Of a DNA stretch of 40,071 nucleotides, positions 3,359-36,670 are shown piece by piece; position 1 is the stretch's first letter, and each line of letters begins with the position of its first letter. This stretch comes from a virus. Below the pieces are notes generated by a model. It was not told where the DNA came from. It ran no database searches and saw only the letters and a list, made by a program, of their open reading frames with translations. A program made the translations under genes and the position numbers. The stretch lies in the IMG/VR virus record IMGVR_UViG_3300017613_000395, positions 1 to 40,071 of that record. One strand, given 5' to 3'.

Positions 3359-3367
3359 AGGATTAAC

Positions 3368-3547
3368 ATGGCAGACGAAAAAAGCATTCAACCTGATAAA
3401 CGCTATCAGTCTAATTACATTGACACAGACACATCACACGGCCCTATGGACAGGTTTGAGCGTGAGCGTAATGCCCACAAGAAGCGTCAGAAGAAGAAGA
3501 TGAAAGACATTGCAGGGCGTGAGGCTCCTAAAAACGTAGACAAGTAA
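3368..3547 (+). CDS. small basic protein, IQPDKRY family, copy 2
   Basis: A 59-residue frame starting ATG GCA GAC GAA and ending TAA at 3545-3547. The N-terminus MADEKSIQPDKRY then NYIDTDTSHGP closely matches the 62-residue protein at 510-698. The C-terminus differs: it is a highly basic KKRQKKKMK stretch. The stop overlaps the ATG of the next gene (TAATG), the same coupling seen at copy 1. This conservation between copies is the main evidence that the gene is real. Function is unknown. The basic tail could bind nucleic acid or a partner protein, which is inference. Confidence 0.75.
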   Translation: MADEKSIQPDKRYQSNYIDTDTSHGPMDRFERERNAHKKRQKKKMKDIAGREAPKNVDK

Positions 3548-4440
3548 TGGATGTTGGTGGACGGGAAACTGTAGGCAACTACATATATGACCTCGCTACA
3601 GACGAGAACACCCGTACCAAGTTAAAGGACGACGCTTACGACCTAGCCGTAGGTGCAGGAACCGCCTTAGCGGGCGCACCCTCAGACATCGCTTCAATAG
3701 TCTTACAGGCTTACGAGTCTGGGTACAACGAGGGCGGTGACTTCTCCATGACGGGTAATGCCGATTGGGAAGATGTTGTCGGTCAACTCCCTCTAGGCTC
3801 TGAACACCTCTCAGAAGGTCTAGGAGCGGATACAGGTGGACTCCCTTGGCTTATGGGTCAATTAGTAGACCCGTTCAGCCCTACCTCTGCTAAGGCTGCG
3901 ATTAAGGTGATGGCAGCAGGTGCTGAACACGCACCTGACCTATTCGCTGCTGCCATGACGGGGCTGAAAAGCGTTGGCGGGAAGAAACTCAAGCCACATC
4001 AAGTTTCACCAAACAGTAAGGAATGGTCAGAACTTGGTATAGATGAAATTGACAGGGCTGCTTTTGGGTTTGCCGAGGGCGATATAAAGTCACTCCCCGC
4101 TGATGAAATTCAGTTAAAGTGGGTTGAAGACATGGAAAATGTTGAGCATCAGATTGCCATAAGCGGAAAGTCCCGCGAGGAATGGGCGCAATCGGTAGAC
4201 CGCTCAACGCCTATAGACGTTATTTACGAAGACGGCGCATTTAAGATTGATGACGGGCATCACCGTTATACAGCAGCGAAGATACTTGGCGAAGATGTTC
4301 CGGTTAGCCTGACGATAAAAGACAAGCCACACGTTGCCCTTGTTGATAGGGCGCTTGCTAACGGAGAGGAGGTAAATCCAGAACTTCTTGACGCGGCAGA
4401 AGAATTGCGAAGAAACGGCGAGAAGATAGCCCCTGAATGA
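3547..4440 (+). CDS. ParB/sulfiredoxin-like domain protein upstream of terminase
   Basis: 297 residues with two parts. Residues 1-~150 are alanine/glycine-rich and mildly hydrophobic (GAPSDIASIVLQA, LPWLMGQLVDPF). Residues ~195-260 contain PIDVIYEDGAFKIDDGHH followed by RYTAAKILG, the pattern of the ParB/sulfiredoxin superfamily, where the D-G-x-H-R segment contributes to nucleotide or phosphate binding. Members act in plasmid partitioning, as nucleases, or as toxin or effector domains. The position directly before terL (ATGA overlap at 4437-4440) fits either a packaging-related protein or a virion-borne modular protein. A small terminase is not evident here; the better candidate is at 28272. 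Confidence 0.6.
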   Translation: MDVGGRETVGNYIYDLATDENTRTKLKDDAYDLAVGAGTALAGAPSDIASIVLQAYESGYNEGGDFSMTGNADWEDVVGQLPLGSEHLSEGLGADTGGLPWLMGQLVDPFSPTSAKAAIKVMAAGAEHAPDLFAAAMTGLKSVGGKKLKPHQVSPNSKEWSELGIDEIDRAAFGFAEGDIKSLPADEIQLKWVEDMENVEHQIAISGKSREEWAQSVDRSTPIDVIYEDGAFKIDDGHHRYTAAKILGEDVPVSLTIKDKPHVALVDRALANGEEVNPELLDAAEELRRNGEKIAPE

Positions 4441-23277: not shown

Positions 23278-23566
23278 TCTTACAGTGGGCGTTATTGGGC
23301 AGGTCATTGGCCTGTTCGGGGCTAAAGGTAAAGCCCAACAGGAGGCTTTGAAGGCCCGTGTTGAGTCCATGCAGCGGTCAGGCACGGACGAGATTATAGC
23401 AGCCGTATGGTTCTCACCCGCCATTGTGGCGTGGTTTGACCCTGAAAGGGCAGAGTTGTGGATAACTAATATCTTCAACACCTCCCCTGAATACACGGCT
23501 TTATTGATAGGCATTACAGCGGCGGTCTTTGGGTTAGGCAAAATTAATGGCCGTATAGGGAAGTGA
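23267..23566 (+). CDS. holin-like membrane protein
   Basis: 99 residues; AAGGAG lies 6 bases before the ATG, which is inside the endolysin gene. There is an N-terminal hydrophobic segment (NLTVGVIGQVIGLFGAKG), a charged middle and two further hydrophobic stretches (IIAAVWFSPAIVAWF, TALLIGITAAVFGLG), giving up to three membrane passes and a basic tail. The position directly after the lysozyme gene and this topology fit a holin of the 3-TM type that releases endolysin to the periplasm. Assignment rests on topology and context. Confidence 0.75.
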   Translation: MLANLTVGVIGQVIGLFGAKGKAQQEALKARVESMQRSGTDEIIAAVWFSPAIVAWFDPERAELWITNIFNTSPEYTALLIGITAAVFGLGKINGRIGK

Positions 23567-23591
23567 CACAACCGCTTGAGTGTGCTATACT
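23563..23591 (+). promoter_or_regulatory. sigma70-type promoter inside the lysis region
   Basis: GTGACA (23563-23568), a 17-base spacer and TATACT (23586-23591) with a TG at 23583-23584 (extended -10). This is the best promoter match in the late region. The predicted start is near 23598, two bases before the ATG of the 47-residue gene, so that message would be almost leaderless. It would let the ClpP, phosphoesterase and second adhesin genes be transcribed independently of the head operon. Confidence 0.65.
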
Positions 23592-23599
23592 TTTTTTCC

Positions 23600-23743
23600 A
23601 TGAAACTAGCCCTCTTGGTCATCCCTACAGTCTGCTATCTGCTTGAGGCAGTGCTGATGCTAAAGGATGATAAAGCAGGTGCTTTAACCTTTGTGGCTTA
23701 TGGCGTGGCTAATGTTGGTTTAATCTGGAAGTTCCTGTTTTGA
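23600..23743 (+). CDS. 47-residue two-helix membrane protein
   Basis: The sequence starts MKLALLVIPTVCYLLEAVLM, followed by KDDKAGALTF and VAYGVANVGLIWKFLF. It has two hydrophobic helices joined by a short charged loop. Small proteins with the ...PTVCYLL...A.YG.ANVGLIW pattern are common near phage lysis genes. The stop overlaps the TTG start of the ClpP-like gene (TTGA). It could be an antiholin or second holin, but no direct evidence identifies which. It lies right behind the internal promoter. Confidence 0.65.
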   Translation: MKLALLVIPTVCYLLEAVLMLKDDKAGALTFVAYGVANVGLIWKFLF

Positions 23744-28032: not shown

Positions 28033-28272
28033 ATGAGTTACGAATCAGACCCCGCCCGTAGAGCGGTTGCAATAACTAAGAGCGATGCCACCATCATCCC
28101 CGGCACACGCGGAGTGTATGTTGGTGGAGCCGGTGATATTGCGGCGCGATTTGTTGGCGACCCAGACACCACGGTTACACTGGTTGGTGTAGTGGCTGGA
28201 ACAGTGTTGCCGATTGAAGTGGTGCAAATCATGGCCGCTACTGATGCCACAAATCTAGTTGCCCTCTACTAA
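28033..28272 (+). CDS. small conserved phage structural protein
   Basis: 79 residues; AGAGGA precedes the ATG. The sequence SYESDPARRAVAITKSDATI followed by RGVYVGGAGDIAARFVGD and VVAGTVLPIEVVQIMAATDA is a common small phage protein pattern (SDPARRAVAI...R.(I/L/V)YVGGAGD...G..LPI.V). It is usually found near tail fibre genes. It is beta-rich and probably a virion component. Exact role unknown. The stop overlaps the next ATG (TAATG). Confidence 0.75.
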   Translation: MSYESDPARRAVAITKSDATIIPGTRGVYVGGAGDIAARFVGDPDTTVTLVGVVAGTVLPIEVVQIMAATDATNLVALY

Positions 28273-28799
28273 TGACAGAACCCAAGAAAAACCCAAAGAA
28301 AACTCAGAGAACCTTCTCTGACGAGTTCAAGATGCAAGCAGTTGCCCTATTTTATTCAGTAGGTAACTACAAGGCTGCTGCTAGAGAGCTTGGGATAGAG
28401 AGGAAATCTCTCCGTAACTGGGTATCTTCCCCTGACGGGCAGAAGTGGTTGCGAACCTTGCGCGACTCCAAGGAAGAAGAGTTCAGGAACATAGCCAGCG
28501 AACTTGTCTTCAAATCGCTAGACCAGCTTAAAGACCGGCTGGATAACGGTAACGTCAGAACAGCGCACGTTAAAGGCGAGTTGAAGGAATGGAGGGAGCC
28601 ACTACAGGCAAAGGATTTGACGTATTCTCTAGGTATCCTAGTAGATAAATTGAGGGTGTCAATGAACCTTCCAACCCGTGTAACAAAGACAGAAGACGGT
28701 GGGGCTAATCTTCTAAAAGAATTTGAGCGGTTGACCGACAACCTCTTAGACAAGAAGGTAGAGGAGAGCATACCGGGCGAGTCAACAGAGTTGAACTAA
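28272..28799 (+). CDS. probable terminase small subunit (HTH protein)
   Basis: 175 residues, basic N-terminus. TFSDEFKMQAVALFYSVGNY followed by KAAARELGIERKSLRNWVSS is a helix-turn-helix of the type used by small terminases and transposase N-domains. The remaining helical part (EFRNIASELVFKSLDQLKDR, then LKEWREPLQAKDLTYSLGIL and VDKLRVSMNLPTR) fits TerS oligomerisation helices. No transposase catalytic domain follows. TerS would recognise the packaging site and assist TerL, which is 24 kb away in the window. A DNA-binding regulator is the main alternative. Confidence 0.65.
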   Translation: MTEPKKNPKKTQRTFSDEFKMQAVALFYSVGNYKAAARELGIERKSLRNWVSSPDGQKWLRTLRDSKEEEFRNIASELVFKSLDQLKDRLDNGNVRTAHVKGELKEWREPLQAKDLTYSLGILVDKLRVSMNLPTRVTKTEDGGANLLKEFERLTDNLLDKKVEESIPGESTELN

Positions 28800-29669: not shown

Positions 29670-30440
29670 CTACTTTTTGCCTTTAAACGAGCCTAGAGCC
29701 TTGTGGAGCATTAAAGCCCCTTTAAAGGCGCTGAAGTCGTTCTCAAACTCAGCCCCCATATCCCGATATTCAACCTTAAACTTGCCATTCTTCTTGTTAA
29801 ACAAGACGATAGCGCGTTGGTCATATCCGGTCAACTCACTAGGGTTATCCTTCGCCCCAATCAATTCCTCCTCTCTCGCATAAGCGTAAGCCGCTGTTTG
29901 GAAGTGCATTTCTGGGTAGATTCCACTGCTAGTCTTATAATCCAGAATCGTCCGTTTCCCATCAATCATGCAATCCAGATCGCACGTACCCACGTATACA
30001 AAATCCTTGGAGAAAACCTTAAACTCAGGTTCAATGAACTCAACCTTACTGTCTTTAACCCAATCAAGGAAGGCTTTAACCCCATCCTTAGCCTGTTTGT
30101 TGACAGGCATCTTAGGCTTATTCCCCAAAGCTACCTGTTCAGCGTAGTCGTGGACAATCGTTCCAATAGACGCAGCATCCCCTGACTTCTGACGGAAGGA
30201 CATTTTACTATCCTTCATAATCCGTTCTAATTGGATTTCATCGTAAGTCTCTCCGGGTTCAATAGCGTTGTGCCAATGAGTAGCTACACAATTTCCTGCC
30301 CAGAACATCAAAGCCGGTTTGTTAATGACCTTCAGGATACCCGTAACCGAAGCTACGGGCATCCCATCCACGGTGTATAGATGCTTCGCGTCATTAAACT
30401 GAAGCAATACCGTATCATCGTATAAGTAATGGTCAGACAT
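29670..30440 (-). CDS. PD-(D/E)XK exonuclease, RecB/Cas4-like
   Basis: 256 residues from the ATG at 30440, which has GGAG 7 bases upstream; the longer frame to 30461 lacks one. Nuclease motifs in order: SIGTIVHDYAEQ (His97), FIEPEFKVFSKDFVYVGTCD (Glu and Asp154), TILDYKTSSG (Asp167, Lys169) and MHFQTAAYAYA (Gln181, Tyr185). This is the PD-(D/E)XK arrangement of RecB-family and Cas4-type exonucleases. Together with the SSB-tail protein encoded upstream it suggests a phage recombination or end-resection pathway. It overlaps the previous gene by 8 bases. Confidence 0.82.
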   Translation of the reverse strand: MSDHYLYDDTVLLQFNDAKHLYTVDGMPVASVTGILKVINKPALMFWAGNCVATHWHNAIEPGETYDEIQLERIMKDSKMSFRQKSGDAASIGTIVHDYAEQVALGNKPKMPVNKQAKDGVKAFLDWVKDSKVEFIEPEFKVFSKDFVYVGTCDLDCMIDGKRTILDYKTSSGIYPEMHFQTAAYAYAREEELIGAKDNPSELTGYDQRAIVLFNKKNGKFKVEYRDMGAEFENDFSAFKGALMLHKALGSFKGKK

Positions 30441-30762
30441 CTTCTTTCTCCATGTCCTCAAACTCTACCTTTGGGTAAAACCATTTATCTTCAATAAAAT
30501 GGCCTATGGCTTCAATATGCCCCTTGAATACCCTTACCCTCACTGGTTTACCCTGTAGGGCAGACCACTCACCAACGCCAACAACCTCCATAACGCGCTT
30601 AACCCACAGCCCTAATGAACGCCCCGAAGTCAGGGCATATCCCCCAAACCCTTGACCAGAGCCTCCGTAGTCAAGGTGGATGAAGCTACTCATAATCCCA
30701 TCACAGGAATCAACTCCAAGTGATGCGGAGGATATTTTAGCGTTTCTGATTGTGTCACTCAT
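30433..30762 (-). CDS. conserved phage protein of the recombination operon
   Basis: 109 residues. The pattern IRNAKISSASLGVDSCDGIM, LDYGGSGQGFGGYAL, GVGEWSALQGKPVRVRVFKG then IEAIGHFIEDKWFYPK is familiar from many phage genomes, where such proteins sit among replication and recombination genes. The biochemical role is unknown to me. It lies between the SSB-tail gene and the nuclease gene, with coupled starts at both ends, which implies a shared function with them. Confidence 0.75.
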   Translation of the reverse strand: MSDTIRNAKISSASLGVDSCDGIMSSFIHLDYGGSGQGFGGYALTSGRSLGLWVKRVMEVVGVGEWSALQGKPVRVRVFKGHIEAIGHFIEDKWFYPKVEFEDMEKEDV

Positions 30763-31469
30763 CAGAAGGGTATTATATCTTCTGGGCCATCATTAATGAT
30801 AGGCGCAACTGACTGAGGTTCAATCTTTTCCTCTGCTGACTCATCAATCTTTTCTTTGAGCCAGTTTGGGAGTGATTCATACACCTCCGGCGTTTCATTC
30901 ATGCCCTCAAACAGGGTTGTGCTGCCCTCAATCTTCGGAGGCTCAACCCCTTTAGGGATAGGCATGGTAGCCGTGATATTGGCGTAGGTCTTACCGTTAT
31001 TCGCCGTGTTATGAGTGACGGATAATTGACACGCAACACCAAGAAGCTTGGTAATGTCAAAGCCTTCCAATTCCTCTGGGGTGAATCCTTTACCCCTCCA
31101 ACTCTCCAACAAAGGCCGAAGTTTAGATTTCTCACTAAGGGAGAGGGTGAACACCTCACCAATCACCATCGGCTTATCCTCGCCGTTGATGTCAATTCTC
31201 TCAGCAGGAACTTGAAACCGAATGTAAATCTTCGGCTGATACTTCACCGACCCCTGCCATTCAGTCTTCTGGGTTCCCAGATTAACTAACATATCACACA
31301 CTGCCATGTGTGCGCCCTGCGACAATTTCTCAAACTCTTTGCCGCCCTTACTTGCTGCCATTATAGCCATTTCATCAATCTCCTGATTTCTCGGCTTCTC
31401 TAATTCAGCCCGCCGATTGTCGTAATCGGCAAGCCATTCTTCATTCGTTTGGTCTTGCGGTCTAGTCAT
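30762..31469 (-). CDS. putative ssDNA-binding protein with SSB-like acidic tip
   Basis: 235 residues. The central region (WQGSVKYQPKIYIRFQVPAE, VIGEVFTLSLSEKSKLRPLL, WRGKGFTPEELEGFDITKLL, GVACQLSVTHN, GKTYANITATM) is a conserved phage family, probably an OB-like beta barrel. The last residues, INDGPEDIIPF, imitate the acidic amphipathic tip of bacterial SSB (DDDIPF), which recruits repair and replication enzymes. A linker rich in Glu and Pro precedes it, as in SSB. Together with the nearby RecB-like nuclease this supports an ssDNA-binding role. The fold assignment itself is inference. Confidence 0.65.
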   Translation of the reverse strand: MTRPQDQTNEEWLADYDNRRAELEKPRNQEIDEMAIMAASKGGKEFEKLSQGAHMAVCDMLVNLGTQKTEWQGSVKYQPKIYIRFQVPAERIDINGEDKPMVIGEVFTLSLSEKSKLRPLLESWRGKGFTPEELEGFDITKLLGVACQLSVTHNTANNGKTYANITATMPIPKGVEPPKIEGSTTLFEGMNETPEVYESLPNWLKEKIDESAEEKIEPQSVAPIINDGPEDIIPF

Positions 31470-32563: not shown

Positions 32564-32664
32564 GCTGCACCCCCCATCTGAAAGAACAGGATATACCAGA
32601 ACAGAGCCGCCACACTCCAGAATAAACACTTCAAGCACAAGTCTTCAGTTCGCTTTTTCATCAT
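32560..32664 (-). CDS. 34-residue single-helix membrane protein
   Basis: Starts MMKKRTEDLCLKC followed by LFWSVAALFWYILFFQMGG: a basic N-terminus, a pair of cysteines and one transmembrane helix, giving an N-in topology by the positive-inside rule. GAGGAAAGG directly precedes the tandem ATG codons, and the first ATG overlaps the previous stop. Its own stop overlaps the next micro-gene. It and the 32-residue protein may act as a pair in the inner membrane. Confidence 0.6.
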   Translation of the reverse strand: MMKKRTEDLCLKCLFWSVAALFWYILFFQMGGAA

Positions 32665-32981
32665 CCTTTCCTCGCTAACTCTTTAGCGTACTTACGACAC
32701 AGTACAGCAAGAATCAATCCAGCCTCAGTGTGGTCACGGGCTAAGATTGCATCAAGGATTGCACTCGCATTGGCCTGACGATCATCAGACTCCATGTAAT
32801 CCTTAGCTAAGGCTTCAGAGATAAACTCATTAGCATCGGGATAAGAGTGGATGATGTCATCAATAGACAGAGGTGTGCGCTTTTCTTCAACGCGATAGAA
32901 GTCAGGGTGTTCCGCAATGTCTATGGGGTCAGCCTGACTTCTAACTAGGTCTAACAGGGATTTCCGTTCATCGTGTTTCAT
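32661..32981 (-). CDS. hypothetical acidic protein, first gene of leftward operon
   Basis: 106 residues; GGAG lies 7 bases before the ATG. It is rich in Asp and Glu with helical segments (MKHDERKSLLDLVRSQADPI, SEALAKDYMESDDRQANASA, GLILAVLCRKYAKELARKG). No family recognised. It is the promoter-proximal gene of the leftward block, only about 17 bases from the predicted transcription start, a position often occupied by small early host-takeover or regulatory proteins. Confidence 0.65.
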   Translation of the reverse strand: MKHDERKSLLDLVRSQADPIDIAEHPDFYRVEEKRTPLSIDDIIHSYPDANEFISEALAKDYMESDDRQANASAILDAILARDHTEAGLILAVLCRKYAKELARKG

Positions 32982-32994
32982 AGCTATTCTCCAG

Positions 32995-33006
32995 TTGATA
33001 AATCAA
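32995..33006. promoter_or_regulatory. operator-like palindrome TTGATAAATCAA
   Basis: TTGAT and ATCAA flank a central AA pair. The site spans from the edge of the predicted leftward -10 box to the transcription start, where a bound repressor would block initiation. The protein that might bind it is unknown; HTH proteins are encoded at 36464 and 37697. Confidence 0.45.
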
Positions 33007-33034
33007 GTCTACACGCATACTCTGAGGATTGCAA
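33006..33034 (-). promoter_or_regulatory. predicted leftward early promoter
   Basis: Reading leftward: TTGCAA (33034-33029), 17 bases, then TAGACT (33011-33006). Four of six bases match at each box with ideal spacing. The predicted start is near 32999, giving a leader of about 17 bases with a GGAG site before the 106-residue gene. No other promoter is visible for this 3.8 kb operon. Confidence 0.5.
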
Positions 33035-33078
33035 GGGGGTCAATCAGCAGGAATCCCTTGTCTTGTTGGACTTGCAAT
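33028..33078. repeat. inverted repeat holding both -35 boxes
   Basis: ATTGCAAG (33028-33035) and CTTGCAAT (33071-33078) are perfect 8-base inverted copies 35 bases apart. The TTGCAA core in each is the -35 hexamer of the leftward and rightward predicted promoters. A nested pair, CAAGGG and CCCTTG, lies inside. Such symmetry suggests a dimeric regulator acting on both promoters together. Confidence 0.55.
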
Positions 33079-33100
33079 GTGCTGTCTCATCAGTTAGGAT
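33072..33100 (+). promoter_or_regulatory. predicted rightward promoter for the intergenic RNA
   Basis: TTGCAA (33072-33077), 17 bases, TAGGAT (33095-33100): the mirror arrangement of the leftward promoter. The predicted start is near 33107. No open reading frame with a ribosome binding site follows before the terminator at 33198, so the product would be a short RNA. Confidence 0.45.
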
Positions 33101-33106
33101 GGTTTG

Positions 33107-33198
33107 CATCATGTGGATAAAGACTGCTTATCAGGGCGCAAAGCCCTCTCCTTTTGACGGAAAAGCCGCTCCGTGCAGTCAGCGGCTACTTTTTTTTG
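33107..33198 (+). ncRNA. candidate small noncoding RNA
   Basis: The interval between the predicted start and the T-run is about 90 bases. It contains a small hairpin AGGGC GCAAA GCCCT (33134-33148), a pyrimidine/T-rich single-stranded stretch and a terminal hairpin with eight T. This is the layout of an Hfq-type bacterial small RNA. No protein-coding signal is visible. The promoter is only a moderate match, so the 5' end is uncertain. Confidence 0.4.
33165..33198. terminator. strong bidirectional intrinsic terminator
   Basis: AGCCGCT (33165-33171) and AGCGGCT (33182-33188) form a perfect 7-base-pair stem around a 10-base loop. Rightward it is followed by AC and eight T (33191-33198). Leftward, the other side offers TTTT, so it can also stop transcripts from the right. 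It separates the hub promoters from the replication promoter at 33298. Confidence 0.85.
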
Positions 33199-33297
33199 GG
33201 CTGCGGCCTCTGGAATCTGATCGTGAGGTCATGGCTCACCATTGGGTATACAGTCCCTCAGCCCGCTTTATTCACGGGTATCGGCAGGGATGCCGTG

Positions 33298-33306
33298 TGC
33301 TATAAT
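33298..33306 (+). promoter_or_regulatory. extended -10 promoter for the replication block
   Basis: TGC TATAAT at 33298-33306 is a perfect -10 with the extended TGn element. No good -35 is present at 16-18 bases, which is tolerated for extended -10 promoters and often implies activator control. The core GTGTGCTATAAT closely resembles the lysis-region promoter core GTGTGCTATACT. The predicted start is near 33313, 70 bases before the O-like gene. Confidence 0.65.
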
Positions 33307-33316
33307 AATGGACTTC

Positions 33317-33355
33317 GGGGTGAACGGTGCTGTATCACTTAGTAGCCCCTTTTTT
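33317..33355 (+). terminator. attenuator-like element in the O-like leader
   Basis: GGGG (33317-33320) can pair with CCCC (33346-33349), directly followed by six T. Inside, GTGA and TCAC give an alternative inner pairing. A transcript from 33313 would meet this within 45 bases, so it may pause or stop polymerase unless modified. The outer stem is only four pairs, so strength is doubtful. Confidence 0.35.
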
Positions 33356-33382
33356 ATAAAATTACTCATACAGGAGTAAATG

Positions 33383-34105
33383 ATGACCGAAACCATAGAA
33401 GTTTACTTTCCCAACTGGCGCAAATACCAACGCGCCCTGAAGGGAGGCACTCGCCATAGAAACTGGTTTGCCGTGAATGTCCATATCGGACATGACCCCG
33501 AATTTATGTCCCTAACCATCCCCGAAAGGTACGGCTGGTTCATGCTGCTTTCTGAGGCTGCTTTGCGCGGAAAGGAACTGGATTGTGGTGGGGTTGTGCT
33601 TAAATTGTGTCTGACTTTGTTCAGGAAACAGTTCGGATTGCGCTCAAATTATGTTCTCGACCCCTATGTAAATCATGGGTTTATCCATATTGGGGTTCCT
33701 ACAGAACATAACATAACAGTACATAACAGTACAGAACAAAAAGAGGGGGAAAAGCCACCCAAGAAACAGACCAAACCTGCTGCCAAATCGACTGCCAAAA
33801 AGCCCAAAGGTTCGCGGGAATGCCCAAAGGATTTCGTACCCTCTGACAAAACGGTTTTAGCGATACAGGGGCATCATCCGACCCTCAAGCCGGAAGATTT
33901 TGACCGTGGGCTGCGTGAAATGAAAGCCCATGCGTACAAAGCCCCGCGTTCAGATTGGAATGCTGCTTTTCGTAACTGGATGAATAACTCTGTCAAGTTC
34001 GGGTCTAACGGCAGGAGTGCTGGTCAACGGGAGGTTGATAGCACAAAGGCCGCGATGAGTGGCGCATTGGAAATTTTAAAACGACAGGAGCAGTCGCGTG
34101 GATAG
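33383..34105 (+). CDS. O-like replication initiation protein
   Basis: 240 residues from the second of two tandem ATG codons; AGGAG is 6 bases before 33383. The N-terminal ~100 residues are winged-helix-like (RHRNWFAVNVHIGHDPEFMS, IPERYGWFMLLSEAALRGKE). A basic, low-complexity linker follows (KKQTKPAAKSTAKKPKGS). The C-terminal domain (LKPEDFDRGLREMKAHAYKA then SDWNAAFRNWMNNSVKFG) matches the DnaT/O-type segment FRNWM. The P-like loader gene follows directly, as O-P in lambda. It probably binds iteron repeats within its own gene. Confidence 0.72.
   Translation: MTETIEVYFPNWRKYQRALKGGTRHRNWFAVNVHIGHDPEFMSLTIPERYGWFMLLSEAALRGKELDCGGVVLKLCLTLFRKQFGLRSNYVLDPYVNHGFIHIGVPTEHNITVHNSTEQKEGEKPPKKQTKPAAKSTAKKPKGSRECPKDFVPSDKTVLAIQGHHPTLKPEDFDRGLREMKAHAYKAPRSDWNAAFRNWMNNSVKFGSNGRSAGQREVDSTKAAMSGALEILKRQEQSRG
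33701..33740. repeat. iteron-like repeats inside the O-like gene
   Basis: Four 10-base units in a row: ACAGAACATA, ACATAACAGT, ACATAACAGT, ACAGAACAAA. The two central units are identical, and the outer ones are related to each other. An A/G-rich tract follows. They lie between the DNA-binding and C-terminal domain coding parts, the position of the origin iterons in the lambda O gene. A replication origin is a reasonable inference. Confidence 0.5.
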
Positions 34106-34643: not shown

Positions 34644-34869
34644 TTATTCAGATATAGCGAGTGCTTCCGGCTTGCCGTGGTGCGCTGGATGTGGAACGCA
34701 CTACAAGCCGCAGAATCAGTCTGACCTTGCTTGTGATGCTTGTGTGAAATGGAACGCGGAAGCACCACGAAAGCACCTCAAGGCTGGATTCAGTCAGACG
34801 CATTCACAGGCATGGCAGACCCGATGGGAAACCTATTGGGGTATTGGTTGGGCGCAGGAGAGGGTGTGA
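34633..34869 (+). CDS. small zinc-ribbon protein
   Basis: 78 residues from the ATG at 34633 (GGAG 7 bases upstream; the ATG at 34630 is closer and less likely). WCAGCGTHYKPQNQSDLACD followed by ACVKW gives two CxxC pairs 16 residues apart, a zinc ribbon. The C-terminus is rich in Trp and Gln (AWQTRWETYWGIGWAQERV). It may bind DNA or a replication partner. The stop overlaps the next ATG. Confidence 0.65.
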   Translation: MPVNYSDIASASGLPWCAGCGTHYKPQNQSDLACDACVKWNAEAPRKHLKAGFSQTHSQAWQTRWETYWGIGWAQERV

Positions 34870-35219
34870 TGAAGATATTTCTATCAGGCGGGCTATCCCC
34901 GTGGATGGCAGAAACGGAAAGGTTGTTGGCGCATGAGCATAAGGTTTTCCGCCCCGATTCCATTGAGTCAAAGGACAGCGGCGTGTTCGCCCCTCGAATC
35001 ATGTCTGAACTGCGTTCATCTGACTTGGTTCTGGCTCTAATGACACATGACAACCCATCTGGTTGCGGCCTTTCGTTTGAGGTCGGTTACGCCACGGCTT
35101 TAGGCATCCCCGTTTTCTTTGTGGATGAAACAGTAGACACCCGCATGGATATGATTCGCGGCTCTGGCGCAAGCCAATTTTCAACGCTTTCTGAAGCGGT
35201 CGCGGGGCTGTTGGCGTGA
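34869..35219 (+). CDS. nucleoside 2-deoxyribosyltransferase-like protein
   Basis: 116 residues from the ATG at 34869 (TGATG overlap); an upstream extension in frame has no matching sequence. MKIFLSGGLSPWMAETERLL, KVFRPDSIESKD, LRSSDLVLALMTHDNPSG and LSFEVGYATALGIPVFFVDE match the N-deoxyribosyltransferase family, with Glu71 as the likely nucleophile and the S-D-L-V-L-A strand before the active-site loop. The enzyme would swap or release nucleobases in nucleotide salvage. It lies just before a PP-loop enzyme, which suggests joint nucleotide or base chemistry. Confidence 0.75.
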   Translation: MKIFLSGGLSPWMAETERLLAHEHKVFRPDSIESKDSGVFAPRIMSELRSSDLVLALMTHDNPSGCGLSFEVGYATALGIPVFFVDETVDTRMDMIRGSGASQFSTLSEAVAGLLA

Positions 35220-36082
35220 AGAAAACCCTCTTTGTCAGTTTCAGCGGAGGCAGGACAAGCGCCTACATGGTGTGGTGGCTGTTAAACAACAAGGCTGCTG
35301 AATACGACCTCCGCTTTGTGTTTGCCAACACGGGGCTGGAGCATGAAAAGACCCTTGATTTTGTGCATCGCTGTGACCAAGAGTGGGGGCTGAACCTTAC
35401 TTGGGTTGAGGCAGTTGTCAGCATGGTTCACGGGGTTGGCATAACCCACAAGGTTGTTGATTACAAAACAGCCGCAAGAAAGGGAGAGCCGTTTGAGCAA
35501 TTTATTCGGTTTGCCGGTGTTCCAAATGCGGCGTTTAACCAGTGTTCAGAAAGGCTCAAGGCAATGCCTATGGAGCATTACCGCAAGATGCTTGGCTTTA
35601 AGAGAAAGCACCCGACAGCCATAGGGATTAGACCAGATGAGGTAGATCGCATGAGTCCTACCGCAGAAATCAATGGGCTTGTCTATCCGTTAATCACAAT
35701 GCACCCCGATAACCCAATGCCGACAAAAGAGTTTATGAGGCACTGGTGGGATAAGCAGGATTTTGATTTAGACTTGCCAGAACACTACGGCAATTGCGTA
35801 ACGTGCTGGAAGAAGTCAGACCGCAAGCTAATGACCATTGCAAAGCATGAGCCTGAGTATTTTGAGTTCTTTGACCGCATGGAGCGCGAACATTCAACGC
35901 TCAAGTGCGACGAGAAGCCACGTTATTTCTTCCGTAGACACAGAGCCACACAAGACATCCTCGCCGCGTCAAAACTTCCGTTTAAGGAATTTGTAGACCA
36001 TATGCCAGAATTGCAGTTGGGAATGTTTGACCCGATGGACATGGAAAGTGACTGCGGCGCTGAGAGTTGTGAGATTCAATGA
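35216..36082 (+). CDS. PP-loop ATP pyrophosphatase, PAPS-reductase-like
   Basis: 288 residues with a GTG start on a GTGA overlap. SFSGGRTSAYMVWWLL contains the SGGxxS PP-loop (residues 10-15), and RFVFANTGLEHEKTLDFVHR is the ANTG..H..T.DFV segment of the PAPS reductase/DndC group. The central domain has AIGIRPDEVDRM. The C-terminal half has YGNCVTCWKKSDRKLM, with cysteines placed as for a zinc or iron-sulphur site, and ends DCGAESCEIQ. Members activate substrates with ATP for sulphate reduction or sulphur insertion into nucleic acid. No dndD/dndE or sulphate genes are present, so the product is unknown. Confidence 0.8.
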   Translation: MKKTLFVSFSGGRTSAYMVWWLLNNKAAEYDLRFVFANTGLEHEKTLDFVHRCDQEWGLNLTWVEAVVSMVHGVGITHKVVDYKTAARKGEPFEQFIRFAGVPNAAFNQCSERLKAMPMEHYRKMLGFKRKHPTAIGIRPDEVDRMSPTAEINGLVYPLITMHPDNPMPTKEFMRHWWDKQDFDLDLPEHYGNCVTCWKKSDRKLMTIAKHEPEYFEFFDRMEREHSTLKCDEKPRYFFRRHRATQDILAASKLPFKEFVDHMPELQLGMFDPMDMESDCGAESCEIQ

Positions 36083-36252: not shown

Positions 36253-36467
36253 CATGGAATTACAGAGTCCTCCGCACCGACTTCGACTCCGGTTCATACT
36301 ACGGAATACACGAAGTTTATGACGATAAATCATACACCCTACTCCCCGTCAAACCACAGGGAGACACAGCGGAGGAGCTGCTAGACGATCTTGCAAAAAT
36401 GATGGGAGCGTTTGAACAGCCGGTACTTGAGATAATTGATGGTGAGCTAAAGGAGATAGAGCGATGA
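36249..36467 (+). CDS. small conserved phage protein
   Basis: 72 residues. MTWNYRVLRTDFDSGSYYGI then HEVYDDKSYTLLPVKPQGDT and LLDDLAKMMGAFEQPVLEII resemble a widespread small phage protein beginning MTWNYRV and containing (F/Y)GIHEVY. It has a beta-strand front and helical back. Function unknown to me. ATGA overlaps exist at both ends. Confidence 0.7.
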   Translation: MTWNYRVLRTDFDSGSYYGIHEVYDDKSYTLLPVKPQGDTAEELLDDLAKMMGAFEQPVLEIIDGELKEIER

Positions 36468-36670
36468 CACAATCACAGCGCATACTAAGGCATATGCAGG
36501 ATCATGGCAGCATCACATCAGCCGAGGCATTTCTGGAATACGGCGTTGCAAGATGCGCCTCCCGAATACATGACCTGAGAAAACAGGGTTGGCAGATAGA
36601 CAGTAAGCCTGTTAAATCCACGAATCGTTACGGCGAAAGCGTGACGTATAGCCGGTATGAGTGGGCATGA
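36464..36670 (+). CDS. winged helix-turn-helix protein
   Basis: 68 residues. SQRILRHMQDHGSITSAEAF, then LEYGVARCASRIHDLRKQGW QIDS is the phage HTH_39-type pattern (I..HL..G.ITS.EA...YG..R...RI.DLR..G..I), a winged HTH. It may regulate early genes or assist replication. It is one of three HTH-type candidates in this block. ATGA overlap with the previous gene. Confidence 0.75.
   Translation: MTQSQRILRHMQDHGSITSAEAFLEYGVARCASRIHDLRKQGWQIDSKPVKSTNRYGESVTYSRYEWA

Follow-up and report, generated by a model that had tools for sequence, protein, structure and literature searches.

The lambda pL/pR region has recombination genes to the left and replication genes to the right of a single gap, transcribed away from each other. 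Regions of this type also carry a CI/Cro repressor with its operators between the promoters, and an N protein with nut sites (boxA-boxB). Lambdoid regions have terminators before the replication gene and iteron-like repeats inside it; lambda gene O contains four 18-bp iterons (PMC3349717). Two other described systems resemble parts of the locus reported here. Bacterial bidirectional promoters, in which sequence symmetry explains divergent transcription from a short stretch, have divergent starts 7-25 bp apart and a shared or overlapping -10 element (PMC10268837). The put RNAs of phage HK022, about 70 nt long and with two stem-loops (PMC9378689), are structured leader RNAs near early promoters, upstream of terminators.

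The window, meaning the whole stretch of DNA that was analysed, is one strand of 40,071 nucleotides, positions 1 to 40,071 of IMG/VR virus record IMGVR_UViG_3300017613_000395. Its terminase is 67-74% identical to those of the nearest viral contigs and 44% identical to that of the nearest GenBank phage. Leftward genes span approximately 29.3 to 33.0 kb and rightward genes 33.4 to 39.0 kb, and the two sets diverge from a 398-bp gap that holds the promoter pair discussed below. As in lambda, recombination genes, here exonuclease and SSB-like, lie leftward and a replication gene, here replication-initiator-like, lies rightward:

29670-30461, minus strand: exonuclease gene (PHROG 298), a recombination gene
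30762-31469, minus strand: gene for an SSB-like/DNA-binding protein; with the exonuclease gene it makes up the leftward recombination genes, 29670-31469
32661-32981, minus strand: first leftward gene, 106 aa, with a GGAG ribosome site just 5' of its ATG
33380-34105, plus strand: first rightward gene, 241 aa, its product distantly similar to replication initiation proteins of phages

The 241-aa protein matches PHROG 1408 (E 1.4e-4) and PHROG 1032 (E 3.6e-4), and the rightward set also holds a PAPS-reductase-like protein and a NinG-like nuclease. Within this replication operon, positions 34740-36082 (plus strand) hold nucleoside deoxyribosyltransferase-like and PAPS-reductase-like genes. An HTH_39 protein is encoded at 36464-36670. 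The locus differs from lambdoid regions in having no recognised CI/Cro-type repressor among the scanned ORFs, no recognised N protein (its 106-aa first gene product has no family match), and no boxA in the rightward leader. AlphaFold gave models too poor for use with both the 106-aa protein (pLDDT 52) and the replication protein (pLDDT 33). A 64-codon reading frame at 33111-33305 was considered as a gene and rejected: its codon score is -0.05, compared with 0.02 to 0.30 in likely genes, it lacks a ribosome site, and tblastn found no homologue in phages. There is no clear coding signal in 33111-33302.

Searches for relatives returned none; the collections searched may omit the window's own record and those close to it. 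The gap and its flanking genes had no blastn relative among phages, plasmids and E. coli genomes; the replication and 106-aa frames, like the 64-aa frame, had no tblastn relative in phages; and scans of viral and genome contigs with the replication, 106-aa, 181-aa and exonuclease proteins gave no relative of the gap region. Nor are the gap or the flanking genes kept in any of 37 complete records that are linked to the window through their terminase or SSB.

An earlier note on this DNA had drawn attention to two inverted 8-mers in the gap, each with a TTGCAA core proposed as the -35 box of a promoter with a 17-base spacer, leading to TAGACT leftward and TAGGAT rightward. All of these elements are present where they were placed:

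33006-33034, minus strand: leftward sigma70-type promoter candidate (TTGCAA at 33034-33029, 17 bp, TAGACT at 33011-33006), predicted start about 32999
33072-33100, plus strand: rightward sigma70-type promoter candidate (TTGCAA at 33072-33077, 17 bp, TAGGAT at 33095-33100), predicted start about 33107
33028-33035 and 33071-33078, no strand assigned: 8-bp inverted arms ATTGCAAG and CTTGCAAT, exact inverted copies

In a simple weight-matrix scan of 80,072 positions, the leftward candidate ranks 52nd, and is the best leftward candidate in the gap, and the rightward one ranks 76th; both are thus in the top 0.1%, with hexamer frequencies typical of E. coli promoters. Each candidate matches the E. 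coli consensus at 8 of 12 bases (4/6 in each hexamer), which is under the 9/12 cut-off, although the host's own rules may differ, and both have spacers of the optimal length. Fourteen TTGCAA boxes occur in the window. The only two less than 80 bp apart are those in the gap, and the same two alone have, 16-18 bp away, a TAnnnT hexamer that matches at 4/6 or better. The leftward candidate is followed by an 18-nt leader, GGAG, and the ATG of the 106-aa gene that heads the recombination operon, and so is plausibly well placed to serve it. About 108 bp separate the two predicted starts, and each has its own -10 box, which puts the pair outside the definition of a bidirectional promoter (PMC10268837). 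Back-to-back promoters were also seen in another phage (L049:5725-5800), in which TTGACA promoters, the leftward one matching at 12/12, lie upstream of a related SSB-like gene.

The stretch to the right of the pair contains several further elements, as does the replication gene:

33122-33179, plus strand: predicted RNA three-way junction, with closing stem GACUGC/GCAGUC and an AGGGC-GCAAA-GCCCU hairpin
33164-33197, plus strand: predicted intrinsic terminator (AGCCGCT, 10-nt loop, AGCGGCT, AC, TTTTTTTT)
33296-33306, plus strand: extended -10 promoter TGTGCTATAAT, the top-scoring rightward promoter candidate in the gap
33317-33355, plus strand: second terminator-like hairpin (GGGGU..GCCCC, then UUUUUU), just 5' of the replication gene
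33700-33741, plus strand: three 15-bp repeats within the replication gene, resembling iterons

The terminator, the extended -10 promoter, the second hairpin and the repeats had all escaped the earlier note. The terminator begins approximately 57 nt past the predicted rightward start, has a predicted energy of -10.8 kcal/mol, and ends in the sole T8 run of the window; a 2-nt gap between stem and T-run weakens it slightly. Under strict rules, applied to both strands, it is the better of two in the window. Two per window is no excess (shuffle mean 1.07), and only 0.8% of shuffles of the gap hold a strict terminator, such that the element is notable for its position and T8 tail rather than for the window count. 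A scan of viral contigs did not find it elsewhere. Because a rightward transcript would enter this strong terminator, the rightward site cannot simply be taken as the rightward operon's promoter. Divergent transcription from the 33-kb gap, as the earlier note had proposed, is still the best reading of the sequence, and its leftward half is well placed; the compact early switch, in the form envisaged there, is unlikely given the strong stop signal 3' of the rightward promoter.

The extended -10 candidate TGTGCTATAAT scores above the rightward TTGCAA/TAGGAT site. Part of it, TGTGCTATA, has exactly one further copy in the window, at 23581. That copy belongs to the top promoter candidate of the whole window (23563-23591, plus strand; GTGACA-17-TATACT with a TGTG extension), which lies upstream of the gene at 23740. 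The second hairpin has a predicted energy of -11.9 kcal/mol. The iteron-like repeats share the highest three-unit repeat score among the window's 726-nt blocks, and they number three of 15 bp where lambda has four of 18 bp (PMC3349717); we consider them a candidate origin. A perfect DnaA box (TGTGGATAA / TTATCCACA; 33112-33120, minus strand) lies in the rightward leader, but it was set aside as a signal because the window has four such boxes and 3.2 are expected by chance, so it may itself be a chance match.

We infer from these elements that this phage, which has no recognised repressor, probably uses the gap as a lambda-like divergent region of early control, with two sigma70-type promoters, the rightward of which would be under termination control. 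Two promoters for the host polymerase would stand back to back in the 398-bp gap. The leftward one would drive the recombination operon (106-aa gene, SSB-like protein and exonuclease), and the rightward one would make a leader of roughly 90 nt that runs into the strong intrinsic terminator. Read-through, or initiation at the extended -10 promoter at 33296-33306, would then feed the replication gene, which carries its own candidate origin; termination, rather than a repressor, would set the rightward output. If so, a probable region of early control has been located, together with a candidate origin, in an environmental phage lineage that is not otherwise characterised, and control there may lie mainly with terminators instead of a visible repressor. 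The back-to-back layout of promoters is ordinary, and the symmetry itself teaches nothing new.

Three other accounts of the gap were weighed against this one. The earlier note had suggested a single dimeric regulator, acting at the inverted arms, that could set both directions. The arms are perfect over 8 bp, overlap both -35 boxes, and are separated by about four helical turns, which would place them on the same face of the DNA. Yet TTGCAA reads the same on both strands, so that the arms add information only through their two flanking bases, and divergent promoters that share one self-complementary -35 hexamer will have inverted arms; because the arms are the -35 boxes themselves, no regulator is needed to account for the inversion. 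The spacing also argues against the proposal, since 35 bp lie between the arms and 43 bp between their centres, more than one ordinary dimer would span. An inverted 8-mer is by itself ordinary and not beyond chance: the window has 37 such pairs within 80 bp, and at least one turns up in 16% of shuffled versions of the 217-nt stretch. A palindrome said to cover the leftward start, TTGATAAATCAA, has TTGATTTATCAA as its reverse complement and is not a true palindrome; it consists of 5-bp arms around AA, a form found 34 times in the window. No CI/Cro-type repressor family was recognised among the scanned ORFs, which took in part of the small ORFs, and to that extent the absence of a visible classic repressor, remarked on in the same note, is borne out. 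We find no support for a single dimeric regulator on the repeat and give it very little credence. A second account accepts just the leftward promoter and the extended -10 at 33301 as genuine and ascribes the rightward TTGCAA/TAGGAT site, and with it the symmetry, to coincidence. The rightward site leads to a terminator and to no clear gene, the site at 33301 outscores it, and promoter-like sequences matching at 8/12 are common, the window having 123, a count below that of its shuffles. A viral contig scan for the 51-bp arm pattern gave 12 other loci, hits that look like chance; most are inside long ORFs, and none of the 12 has outward 4/6 -10 boxes on both sides. Against coincidence, pairs of divergent 8/12 promoters that agree in both -35 hexamer and spacer average 0.04 per shuffle over 150 dinucleotide shuffles of the whole window, and the 8-mer inversion accompanied such a pair in none of the 150. 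The rarity of the combination (about 0.01-0.04) is suggestive and not proof; the criteria were set after the sequence had been seen, and because of this the rarity lends moderate support to two real promoters. Among 67 divergent gaps from the window and SSB-related loci, a count that excludes the window's own 33-kb gap because an overlapping reading frame hid it from the gene caller, 12 contain divergent 8/12 promoters no more than 100 bp apart, and in 3 the two share their -35 hexamer. Paired TTGCAA-17-TAGNNT sites are absent from the other loci compared, which are not known to keep the operon. A terminator just downstream also makes sense given a start at 33107, and we regard a coincidental rightward site as unlikely.

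The remaining account concerns the RNA made from the rightward promoter, and it overlaps the termination-controlled region that we favour, from which it differs in taking the RNA itself as the functional product. The transcript might be a free-standing small RNA, some 90 nt long (33107-33197); alternatively, it might be an attenuated leader in which the junction competes against the terminator, with a role comparable to that of lambda OOP or HK022 put. The promoter, the structured stretch and the terminator do delimit one short unit, and in the predicted fold the three-way junction and the terminator stem are mutually exclusive. The AGGGC-GCAAA-GCCCU hairpin (33133-33147) has a GNRNA loop and is boxB-like in shape. 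On the other side, the fold z-score depends on the exact window chosen (-2.77 for 33120-33180 and -1.14 for 33120-33179, against a random-window background with a 5% quantile of -2.42), so that the predicted junction is suggestive but not clearly beyond background. Rfam gave no match to the leader up to E 5, and Rfam and tRNA scans of the sequence gave nothing. No relative was found from which covariation could be read, and boxA-like sites are at chance level overall, with none in the leader. Put, moreover, has two stem-loops that cause antitermination, where the window has a weakly supported predicted three-way junction. We hold a functional RNA of either form to be possible but doubtful. A more elaborate version, in which the leader at 33107-33197 is a self-acting RNA switch whose junction forms first, holds the terminator open and gates replication without a repressor, seems to us highly improbable.

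Two observations were made elsewhere in the window. The gene at 28272-28799 (plus strand) encodes a transposase-type HTH (HTH_Tnp_1, E 4e-8) with a weak match to terminase small subunits, and its product is perhaps the small terminase, though the large terminase is distant, at 4437. In the tail region, a 62-nt repeat with 71% identity is found at 505-566 and 3363-3424 (plus strand), perhaps representing a duplicated gene start.
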